NCBI GenBank assembly: GCA_025054935.1
Contig: JANWZD010000001.1
Location: forward strand, 575,008-639,007
Direction: 5' to 3'
Origin: Dehalococcoidia bacterium
GTDB taxonomy: Bacteria > Chloroflexota > Dehalococcoidia > SpSt-223
DNA: 64,000 nucleotides
The stretch's first letter is position 1; each line of letters begins with the position of its first letter. Below the pieces are notes generated by a model. That model did not search any database, was not told the DNA's origin, and saw only the letters and a list, made by a program, of their open reading frames with translations. Shown here one piece after another: positions 17,661 to 21,963 of this stretch. The translations under genes and the position numbers were made by a program.

Positions 17661-18995
17661 GTGGACGCGCGGTTCCGTCAGTTGACTACTGTCGTCCTCC
17701 CGATCGCCTTTGTCGCGGGCCTCATCGCCGCTGACCGATTCGTGATCGCGCCGTGGATTCCCGGCTGGCTCTCCCTCCTGCTCACGCTTGCCATTGCTGG
17801 GGTCGGGGTCGTTACGTTCAACGGCATCATCATGAAGCGGCTCGACGCTTCGCAGCAGCGGATTATCACCCAGAACCGGCAGCTGGCCGCCCTTGACGAA
17901 GCGAGCATCGTGATCGCGTCGGAGCTTTCACTGGAGCGCGTGCTCCAGCGGATTGTCGACATCGTCCGCGAACTGTCGGGCGCGCGCTACGCTGCTCTCG
18001 GCATTCTTGGCCCCGACGGTTTTCTGACAGACTTGATCACCTCCGGCTTGACGCCAGCCGAGCGCGCCGCGATCGGGTCGCTTCCCCGGAACCATGGCAT
18101 CCTTGGAACGATGCTGCGCGAGGGGCAGCCGGTCCGGGTCCCCAACCTTGCCGCAGAGCCGCGACGAACAGGGTTTCCGCCGAATCATCCGCCGATGTCG
18201 AAGCTGATGGGCGTGCCGATCGTCAGCGGGAGCACGGTTATCGGCAACCTCTATCTCGCCGATAAGGTCGACGGCAGCGAGTTTACCGACGACGACGAGC
18301 GCCTCATCGTCCTGCTCGCCGCTCACGCCGCGGTCGCGATCGAAAACGCTCGCCTTCACCAGCAGGTACAGCGCCTCGCCGCCTCCGAAGAGCGGAACCG
18401 CATCGCTCGCGAACTGCACGACGGGACGATCCAGTCGATCTATGGCGTCAATCTCGTCCTCGAGGATGCACAGGACCTGCTCAGAAGCGACCCGGCGGCT
18501 GCTTCCGCTCGGCTTGACGAAGCGATCGAGGCGCTGAATGCGATAATCCTCGAGATTCGCGGCTACATTCACAATCTCCGCTCGATGCTGGAGCCAAGCA
18601 GCCTCACTGAGATGATCGCGGACCTTGTCGCCAGCCATCGGCGCACAACGGGGGTCGACATTCAGTTCTCGGCAGAAGGGCAGCTTCCGCTCGACTCCGA
18701 TGCTCCTTGGCATGTGCTGCAACTGGTGCGCGAAGCGCTCTCCAACATCGCCCGCCATGCCGACGCGAAGCGGGTGGCGATCCGCCTCGCGCGCCGAGAC
18801 GATGCGATGACCATCGTGATCGAGGACGATGGCCGCGGTTTCGACCCTGCCGCGCCGAACCGGGTGGGGAATGGCCTGCGCAATATGCGCGAGCGCGCCG
18901 CCGCCGTCGGGGGAGCCCTGCAGATCGAGAGCGCCCCGGGAGCGGGGACCCGACTCGTGGTGACCATACCGATTGCCCAAGGAGTGCGAGCGTGA
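17661..18995 (+). CDS. GAF-domain sensor histidine kinase (NarL-type partner)
   Basis: The 444-aa kinase has two N-terminal hydrophobic helices (residues about 8-50), a coiled linker and a GAF domain (about 75-230). A HisKA_3 dimerisation box has the phospho-acceptor His in IARELHDGTIQSI, and a HATPase domain has IEDDGRGFDPA and VGNGLRNMRERA. This architecture resembles DevS/NarX-type sensors. The ligand of the GAF domain cannot be read from sequence. GTG 17661 follows GGAGGGG; a TACAAT box lies at 17619-17624. Its stop overlaps the response regulator start. Confidence 0.9.
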   Translation: MDARFRQLTTVVLPIAFVAGLIAADRFVIAPWIPGWLSLLLTLAIAGVGVVTFNGIIMKRLDASQQRIITQNRQLAALDEASIVIASELSLERVLQRIVDIVRELSGARYAALGILGPDGFLTDLITSGLTPAERAAIGSLPRNHGILGTMLREGQPVRVPNLAAEPRRTGFPPNHPPMSKLMGVPIVSGSTVIGNLYLADKVDGSEFTDDDERLIVLLAAHAAVAIENARLHQQVQRLAASEERNRIARELHDGTIQSIYGVNLVLEDAQDLLRSDPAAASARLDEAIEALNAIILEIRGYIHNLRSMLEPSSLTEMIADLVASHRRTTGVDIQFSAEGQLPLDSDAPWHVLQLVREALSNIARHADAKRVAIRLARRDDAMTIVIEDDGRGFDPAAPNRVGNGLRNMRERAAAVGGALQIESAPGAGTRLVVTIPIAQGVRA

Positions 18996-19663
18996 CCGAG
19001 AACACGGCGCCGATCCGGATCATGATCGTTGACGACCATGAAGTTGTCCGCCAAGGCCTGAAGACGCTCCTCGAACGGCGGGAGCGTCTCGCCGTCGTCG
19101 CCGAGGCGGGCAGCGTTCAGGAGGCAGTGCGCGAGGCGCTCCGGACAGAACCGGATGTCATTGTGATGGATGTTCGTCTTCCCGATGGGACGGGCGTCGA
19201 AGCCTGCCGCGAGATCCGCGCCGAGCGGCCGGGGACGAAGGTGCTCATGCTCACCTCCTACGCCGATGAGGAGGCCGTCTTCGCCTCGCTCATGGCGGGA
19301 GCGTCCGGGTACCTGCTGAAGCAGACCCGCGCTCGCGAACTGGTAAGCGCGATCGAGACAGTAGCAACGGGCGGCTCGCTCCTCGACCCCGGCGTCGCCG
19401 AGCGCGCGCTGCAGCGGATCCGGGCCGTCGCCGCCGGCGAGCGCACTCCGGAGGAGCGTCAGCTCGAGACGCTGACGGAACAGGAGCGCCGCATTCTTCC
19501 GCTCATCGCGCAGGGCAAGACCAATAAAGAGATCGCCAACGAGCTTATCCTCTCCGACAAAACCGTGAAAAACTACGTCTCGTCGATCTTGAGCAAGCTT
19601 GGCCTGACGCGGCGTTCCCAAGCCGCCGCCTTCGCCGCGAAGCAGCTGTCGCAGCAGCGCTAG
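18992..19663 (+). CDS. LuxR/NarL-family response regulator
   Basis: The 223-aa regulator begins with a receiver domain (IMIVDDHEVVRQGL with the acidic pocket, phospho-Asp in VIVMDVRLPDGTG, Thr in LMLTSYAD, Lys in GYLLKQ). It ends in a LuxR-type helix-turn-helix (LTEQERRILPLIAQGKTNKE, then SDKTVKNYVSSILSKLGL). It should be the partner of the overlapping kinase and bind DNA when phosphorylated. GTG 18992 overlaps the kinase stop (GTGA). Target genes are not evident in the window. Confidence 0.93.
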   Translation: MTENTAPIRIMIVDDHEVVRQGLKTLLERRERLAVVAEAGSVQEAVREALRTEPDVIVMDVRLPDGTGVEACREIRAERPGTKVLMLTSYADEEAVFASLMAGASGYLLKQTRARELVSAIETVATGGSLLDPGVAERALQRIRAVAAGERTPEERQLETLTEQERRILPLIAQGKTNKEIANELILSDKTVKNYVSSILSKLGLTRRSQAAAFAAKQLSQQR

Positions 19664-19986: not shown

Positions 19987-20081
19987 CGAGAGCGCGAGGG
20001 AGTCGAACCCTCCCCCGACGACGCGGGCCGCCGGGCAACGGTTTTGAAGACCGCGAGGACCACCGGGCCCCATCCGCTCCC
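19987..20081 (-). tRNA. selC: tRNA-Sec (UCA anticodon)
   Basis: Read on the minus strand, this 95-nt RNA has the anticodon loop CTTCAAA with anticodon TCA (complement of 20045-20047) on a GCGGT/ACCGT stem. The T arm is GAGGG-TTCGACT-CCCTC. A long variable arm has a 7-bp stem (CCCGGCG/CGTCGGG), the hallmark of selenocysteine tRNA. The 8-nt acceptor strands GGGAGCGG and GCGCTCTC pair with one G-U and a G-G mismatch at the eighth position, which is unusual for the 8+5 bacterial form. CCA is not encoded. It serves SelB-dependent UGA decoding. No selA, selB or selD lies in the window. Confidence 0.9.
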
Positions 20082-20087
20082 GCGACG

Positions 20088-20096
20088 ATCCTAGCA
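20088..20096 (-). promoter_or_regulatory. extended -10 promoter of selC
   Basis: On the minus strand TGC-TAGGAT (20096-20088) is an extended -10 box. The predicted start, seven nt after its last T, is exactly position 20081, the mature tRNA 5' end. A weak TTGGCT lies 15 nt upstream as a -35. Confidence 0.5.
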
Positions 20097-20122: not shown

Positions 20123-21865
20123 TCACTCCCCTCGCGGGGCGCTCTCGCTCCGAGGAAGAGACGATGCCGCCTCGCCCATGGTCCGGAACTTCTTGTAGCG
20201 ACGCGCCAGCAGTTTGTCGATCGGCTGGCGCTGCAGTTCGACCAACTCGTGGACGAGGGCGCTCTTGAGGAGATGAGCAGCCGCTTCCGGGTCGTGATGG
20301 GCGCCCCCAACCGGCTCGGAGACGAGCGCATCAACGACGCCGAACGCGCGGCAGTCACGCGCCGTAATCCGGAGCGCGCTCGCCAGCTCTTCGGCACGGG
20401 AAGGATCGTGATAGAGGATGGCTGCGGCGCCTTCCGGAGCGATCACCGAATAGATCGCATTCTCCTGCATCAGGACGCGGTCGGCCACTCCGAGGGCGAG
20501 CGCTCCCCCGCTGCCACCCTCGCCGATGATTGCGGAGACGATGGGGGTGGGCAGTTCGACCATCGTGGCGAGACAGAGAGCGAGCGCCCCGGCCAGCCCG
20601 CGCTCTTCGGATTCGAGGCCGGGGTAGGCGCCGGGCGTATCGATCAGGGTGACCAGCGGCAGCCGGAGCTTGGCGGCAAGCAGCATCAGCCGACGCGCCT
20701 TCCGGTAGCCCTCGGGGCGAGCGCGGCCCTCATTGCGGTCGACTGGATCGCCCGGATGGCCCCGTTCGTGTCCGACGATGACCACCGGCTGACCTGCCAG
20801 TTCCGCAAGCCCGCCGACGATCGCAGGATCGTCGCCGAAAACCCGGTCGCCGTGCAGTTCGACGAACCCCGTCGTCATCAGCCGGATGTAGTCGAGCGTG
20901 GTCGGTCGGCGATTATGCCGTGCGAGCTGCACCGTCTCCCAGGCCGTCTCGCCGGCTCTCGGCGCGACTGTCGAGAGCGCCGCCTCTTCTGTCGCCGTGA
21001 GGCGATAGGGGGAGTCAACAAGGTTGAGGAGCTGCGCTACCAGCCCGCGAAGCTTGGCGCGGTCGACGATCTGGTCAAGCTGGCCATGACGGAGGAGAAA
21101 CTCCGGCCGCTGCGCGCCCGGCGGCAAGCGCTGCCCGATGGTGCTTTCGATGACGCGAGGCCCGGCAAAACCGATCAGCGCTCCCGGTTCGGCAAGCGTA
21201 ATGTCGCCGAGGCTGGCGAAGGAGGCGTAAATCCCGCCCATCGTCGGGTCGGTCAGGACGCTAATGAACGGCAAGCCGGCGCTGTGGTGGCGTTTGGCCG
21301 CCGCGACCGTCTTGGCCATCTGCATCAGCGAGAGAATGCCTTCCTGCATCCGCGCGCCGCCGCTCGTGACGATGAGAACGATCGGCAGCTTCTCGCGGGT
21401 CGCCTGCTCGAAGGCGCGGGCGATTTTTTCGCCCGTCGCGGCGCCCATCGAGCCGCCGAGAAAATCGAAGTCGAGCGCGCCGAGGACCACCGCGTGGCCG
21501 GCAATCCGGCAGACGCCGGTGAGAACGGCTTCTGCTAAGCCGGTCCGGCGCTGCGCGTCAACCAGCCGCTCTCGATACGGCAGCTTATCGGAGAAGGCGA
21601 GCGGATCGCCGCTGCGCAGTCCGCGGTTGATCTCGCGGAAGGTGTTCGGGTCGGCCAGCAGATCAACGCGTTCGCGGGCGGAGAGGGCGAAGTGGTGCCG
21701 GCACGATGCGCAGACGCGCAGCCGCCGATATTCGATATCGCTTGTCAAGTTCGCCCCACAGGAAGGACAGGTGTCGAGCGTTGCTGCGCTCGGCTCGCCC
21801 GCCGGCGGCTCGTCCTCCCGTCGCGCTGGACCGAACCGCGTCAAGAACTCTGGCCATCGCAACAT
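20123..21865 (-). CDS. accDA: fused acetyl-CoA carboxylase carboxyltransferase AccD-AccA
   Basis: One 580-aa chain carries both carboxyltransferase subunits, which transfer CO2 from carboxybiotin to acetyl-CoA to make malonyl-CoA. The beta half has a zinc ribbon (CPSCGANL, CASCRHH) and the ALDFDFLGGSMGAATGEKIA and VTSGGARMQEG motifs. The alpha half, from about residue 310, has FVELHGDRVFGDD, TLIDTPGAYPG and AIIGEGGSGGALALG. There is no stop between. ATG 21865 was chosen because upstream residues are not conserved. The biotin carboxylase gene lies at 23934; no biotin carrier gene is seen nearby. Confidence 0.92.
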   Translation of the reverse strand: MLRWPEFLTRFGPARREDEPPAGEPSAATLDTCPSCGANLTSDIEYRRLRVCASCRHHFALSARERVDLLADPNTFREINRGLRSGDPLAFSDKLPYRERLVDAQRRTGLAEAVLTGVCRIAGHAVVLGALDFDFLGGSMGAATGEKIARAFEQATREKLPIVLIVTSGGARMQEGILSLMQMAKTVAAAKRHHSAGLPFISVLTDPTMGGIYASFASLGDITLAEPGALIGFAGPRVIESTIGQRLPPGAQRPEFLLRHGQLDQIVDRAKLRGLVAQLLNLVDSPYRLTATEEAALSTVAPRAGETAWETVQLARHNRRPTTLDYIRLMTTGFVELHGDRVFGDDPAIVGGLAELAGQPVVIVGHERGHPGDPVDRNEGRARPEGYRKARRLMLLAAKLRLPLVTLIDTPGAYPGLESEERGLAGALALCLATMVELPTPIVSAIIGEGGSGGALALGVADRVLMQENAIYSVIAPEGAAAILYHDPSRAEELASALRITARDCRAFGVVDALVSEPVGGAHHDPEAAAHLLKSALVHELVELQRQPIDKLLARRYKKFRTMGEAASSLPRSESAPRGE

Positions 21866-21963
21866 CGGCGTCGTCCCCCTTGGACCGCCCTTTTTGAGGA
21901 TAGCATGGGACCAAGTAGCCCACGACCCCTTCGCGAGGCAGTTCGCCAAGCGCAAACCGAGCG

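Follow-up and report, generated by a model that had tools for sequence, protein, structure and literature searches.

The tRNA-Sec gene described here (selC) almost certainly belongs to a complete bacterial selenocysteine system, judging from the gene content of the genome in which it lies. With much the same assurance, the gene can be regarded as an ordinary and presumably functional tRNA-Sec gene of the known family, despite a G-G opposition at the eighth layer of its acceptor stem. This latter feature is shared with many other bacterial tRNA-Sec.

The gene was found in a window of 64,000 nt, which is the whole stretch of DNA that was analysed. ARAGORN places a tRNA-SeC(tca) at exactly 19987-20081 on the reverse strand and reports no second tRNA across the window. 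The Rfam family RF01852 matches 19988-20081 on the same strand with 68.0 bits, above its gathering score of 47, and the match covers the model completely (1-91); the E value of 9.3e-12 refers to a search of the window against all Rfam families. Across the 3.57-Mb genome, in which the window corresponds to C1:575008-639007, the selC locus is the only one over the cut-off of RF01852. Both results confirm the proposal of an earlier, sequence-only reading of this DNA that a complete tRNA-Sec with a UCA anticodon is present, and the covariance model is the check which that reading had suggested.

The gene is 95 nt long, and the CCA end is not encoded. More specifically, the acceptor stem drawn in the ARAGORN cloverleaf is formed by the 5' strand GGGAGCGG (tRNA positions 1-8, 20074-20081 on the reverse strand, as are all parts of the gene) and the 3' strand GCGCUCUC (19988-19995, from the cloverleaf and the survey described below), followed by the discriminator G73 at 19987 (from the sequence and the cloverleaf). 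The D arm (20056-20071) has a 6-bp stem and a 4-nt loop according to both RF01852 and ARAGORN. The anticodon UCA (20045-20047, given by ARAGORN at position 35) stands in the anticodon loop CUUCAAA, and the T arm (19996-20012) has the 5-bp stem GAGGG/CCCUC and the loop UUCGACU in the cloverleaf. The variable arm (20014-20035) is long; ARAGORN draws it with as many as 9 pairs, two of them G.U, where the earlier reading had counted 7 bp. The acceptor and T stems give the 8/5 fold with 8 + 5 = 13 layers, of which the eighth is the G.G opposition. At the 3' end the gene is followed by GGUU instead of CCA; the tRNA-Sec of one genome of the same genus (G002) does encode CCA. Plain RNA folding of selC alone returned a minimum free energy structure that is not a cloverleaf, and the lack of a cloverleaf preference in such folding is usual for tRNAs.

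Two oppositions in the acceptor stem had drawn attention to this gene, and both are seen in the cloverleaf. The first is G8.G66 (tRNA position 8 against 87, window positions 20074 and 19995), and the second is G2.U71, with the U at 19989. A G-G in the acceptor together with a G.U at the second pair could be taken as marks of lost function, as if the tRNA had decayed or been misread. A survey of acceptor pairs covered 206 tRNA-Sec whose acceptor has eight layers, two duplicate genomes having been left out. Pairs 1-7 are non-standard in only 2 of 1442 cells, whereas at pair 8 a non-standard opposition occurs in 121 of the 206 tRNA-Sec, in a sample that favours high-scoring matches and whose sequences are related, so that a Fisher value is not a fair probability. 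Within the class, pair 8 is non-standard in 74 of 110 tRNA-Sec, and G.G, which accounts for 68 of these, is the commonest state, occurring in 28 of the 50 sampled families. The other classes of the phylum show a non-standard pair 8 in 29 of 66 tRNA-Sec (16 of them G.G). In other phyla, as represented by a set of 50 named genomes from which this comparison was drawn, the count is 18 of 30, mostly G.A and A.G with no G.G. The result for pair 8 was the same whether this pair was weighted 0, 1 or 2 when choosing the 5' end.

Because pair 8 is so often non-standard while pairs 1-7 are almost invariably standard, the mismatch at 8:66 is a site-specific feature and not decay. Arguing further against decay are the score of selC against RF01852, the near identity of the remainder of the tRNA in relatives, and the selenocysteine genes and five genes with in-frame TGA described below; loss of function is thus a very improbable explanation. 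The description of the acceptor stem as atypical therefore survives only in part. It does not apply to G8.G66, given the 68 tRNA-Sec of the class that share it, but it does apply to G2.U71, which among the surveyed tRNA-Sec is confined to this genus and is fixed in its three genomes.

The selenocysteine machinery was sought by profile searches of the genome contigs, and all three genes whose search had been recommended are present. A selA gene is found on contig C2 (559 bits) and a selB gene on C10 (its 329 bits exceed the cut-off, its C-terminal part is matched as well, and it is the top NCBIfam hit), and selD lies at C15:53052-53978 (397 bits) and contains one in-frame TGA. Since the assembly consists of 93 contigs and its contamination is 3.9%, any of the unlinked sel genes might conceivably have come from another organism; against this concern stands the presence of tRNA-Sec in all three genomes of the genus, and likewise in all three genomes sampled from the order. 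The earlier term "orphan" is accurate for the window, which holds no sel gene. Biologically, however, selC is not an orphan, because the sel genes are present and merely unlinked to it.

Family searches of the genome for selenoprotein candidates yielded, in addition to selD, four genes interrupted by TGA: an AhpD-like gene with the TGA inside its CMD match (C5:139098-139325), two AhpC/TSA genes with the TGA inside the AhpC-TSA match (C7:21314-21682 and C19:21105-21479), and a DsbA-like gene with the TGA inside the DsbA match (C14:32981-33547). In SelD the context is MDPHEIVRLTSLSHGAG-U-ACKLG (SHGAG-U-ACK), at the known Cys/Sec site of this protein. In the four other redox genes, where the domain matches run across the TGA, the contexts are HGCAS-U, FTSG-U-T, RGWW-U-PKC and DFV-U-PWC. 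The TGA thus stands at a redox-active Cys/Sec site in five of five genes. Since all five lie at catalytic positions in otherwise open domains, sequencing error is not expected to be their cause. These five genes are likely to encode selenoproteins and annotation will truncate them, which agrees with the earlier warning about TGA-terminated genes under standard gene calling. Unless UGA recoding is considered, selD, dsbA, the two peroxiredoxin-like genes and the ahpD-like gene would be truncated or missed.

The sequence-only reading had also called for reading frames that continue past a TGA with a SECIS hairpin, and here the outcome is divided. The in-frame TGA genes were found and hairpins fold after the UGA codons, but the SelD hairpin (AGCUCGG-CGCGA-CCGAGCU) has a z-score of -0.99 against shuffled sequences in a GC-rich context, and those of the other TGA genes are local folds that are not significant in GC-rich sequence. 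Within the window itself, a scan for in-frame TGA codons conserved in the corresponding syntenic region of G002, a genome of this genus, gave 469 TGA with open flanks. Judged by eye, none of them looks like part of a selenoprotein gene; the hits resemble true stop codons or frames other than the coding one. FdhA was considered as a selenocysteine enzyme and rejected, the 949-aa FdhA-like gene on C6 being without a TGA. As a separate observation, also by eye, the FdhA-like protein at C6:96044-98092 has an apparent Ser (in ARLSDAAGL) at the position where Sec or Cys is expected, and for this reason the 949-aa FdhA-like protein may not be a formate dehydrogenase.

Taken together, selA, selB, selD and the five TGA genes at catalytic sites make UGA recoding in this organism, as had been proposed, well supported. 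In such a system SerRS would charge the tRNA-Sec with serine, SelA would convert it to Sec-tRNA-Sec using selenophosphate from SelD, and SelB would deliver the product to those in-frame UGA codons that have a bacterial SECIS hairpin after them. Among the targets would be SelD itself and the DsbA-like, the two AhpC/TSA and the AhpD-like proteins; the unpaired G8.G66 preserves the length of the 8 + 5 helix. The gene with its covariance-model fold, the three sel genes, the TGA codons at five catalytic sites and the distribution of the mismatch are observed, whereas we infer expression of selC, charging, delivery by SelB, the SECIS elements and any part that the mismatch plays. A tRNA with an opal anticodon may alternatively insert another amino acid, as a selC-like tRNA-Cys or other UGA suppressor. 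Such tRNAs exist: in the selC* tRNA-Cys (PMC7609411) an opal anticodon goes together with an 8/4 fold in which A51a is bulged. The T stem of selC has 5 bp and no bulge, and its 8/5 fold, G73, 6-bp D stem and long variable arm, together with the presence of SelA, SelB and SelD in the genome, make a suppressor even less probable than a decayed tRNA. Insertion of selenocysteine is accordingly the function to be preferred for selC.

The neighbours of selC are those reported earlier, a response regulator and accDA, although the gene cannot be said to stand alone. Its start lies 41 bp downstream of a fused accD-accA gene for acetyl-CoA carboxylase carboxyltransferase (20123-21949, reverse strand, from domain matches) in the same orientation, and a tRNA-Sec also follows accDA in two relatives (L044, which is the G002 locus, and L045, probably that of G001). 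On the other side, a NarL/LuxR-type response regulator (18800-19663, forward strand, with domain matches from near 19013) is convergent with selC, and beyond accD-accA, further upstream, lie a gene for an acyl carrier protein and tatC. The accD and accA portions are joined in a single open frame that codes for about 608 aa, and several related loci match the accD-accA query across both halves. A scan around selC for promoters and terminators found no consensus promoter and no terminator. A weak candidate for a -10 element, TAGGAT at 20088-20093 on the reverse strand, is identical in the same-genus genome G002 (locus L044), which is the only relative compared that shares it. Transcription of selC may proceed either from its own promoter or by read-through from accDA.

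In wider samples, tRNA-Sec is present in 209 of 294 genomes from the class and in 305 of 400 from the phylum. The selenocysteine trait was known in this phylum before, a list of 2006 having credited Chloroflexi with three selenoproteins (PMC1794560).

What the mismatch at 8:66 means is a separate question from whether selC functions. By E. coli numbering, the eighth acceptor layer corresponds to C7-G66 of the E. coli tRNA-Sec. In E. coli, C7-G66, G49.U65 and C50-G64 serve as SelB identity elements and in the rejection of EF-Tu, according to a review (PMC9976931) that cites Rudinger 1996. One of these three pairs is therefore a layer that is unpaired in more than half of the sampled bacterial tRNA-Sec, and the E. 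coli box is for this reason not universal. The open papers searched gave no account of a widespread mismatch at 8:66; 12-bp variants and bulges are described in them, and structure papers may cover it. The mismatch is a common, tolerated and perhaps selected state in bacterial tRNA-Sec.

There is about an even chance that this state reflects neutral drift at an unimportant acceptor/T junction, with no role towards SelB or EF-Tu, which would be compatible with a functional selC. Many states occur at pair 8 (GG, GA, AG, UC, GC, CG and AU), and the same-genus genome G001 has G-C, as drift would allow. Under pure drift, however, one would expect more variety than is observed, for purine-purine oppositions dominate the mismatches, and G.G is kept across more than half of the sampled families of the class. 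A more tentative suggestion, also drawn from the survey, is that the purine-purine opposition may be a conserved functional element that marks tRNA-Sec for SelB and against EF-Tu across much of bacteria, in place of the pair that E. coli has in this very layer. The comparison at pair 8 is the only part of this analysis of possible specialist interest, and the role of the position is open to direct test.

In comparison with known systems, selC shares with the bacterial tRNA-Sec of RF01852 the UCA anticodon, the 8/5 fold with its 13-layer helix, the 6-bp D stem, the long variable arm, G73 and the accompanying selA, selB and selD. It differs from the tRNA-Sec of E. coli in having G.G in place of C-G at 8:66. 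Chloroflexota often have G.G there, and other phyla often have a different mismatch, whereas G2.U71 is peculiar to this genus. The box for SelB identity and EF-Tu rejection in E. coli occupies the same three helix layers at the acceptor/T junction, but none of its three pairs is kept in selC, where the layers are G.G, G-C and A-U. Among the surveyed tRNA-Sec of Chloroflexota, G.U prevails in the second layer and U-A in the third, while the first varies and most often is G.G. Within the class, three tRNA-Sec (L158, L176 and L186, in genomes G268, G145 and G237) have a 7-nt acceptor and a 7/5 fold, and nine have U.U at pair 2 of the T stem, which in some cases accompanies G.G at 8:66. Bacterial tRNA-Sec with the 7/5 fold (12 bp) are known, including those of Dehalogenimonas (PMC5330540). 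In these, which show that the helix is known to vary within this class, one pair is missing, while selC keeps eight nucleotides on both strands of its acceptor.
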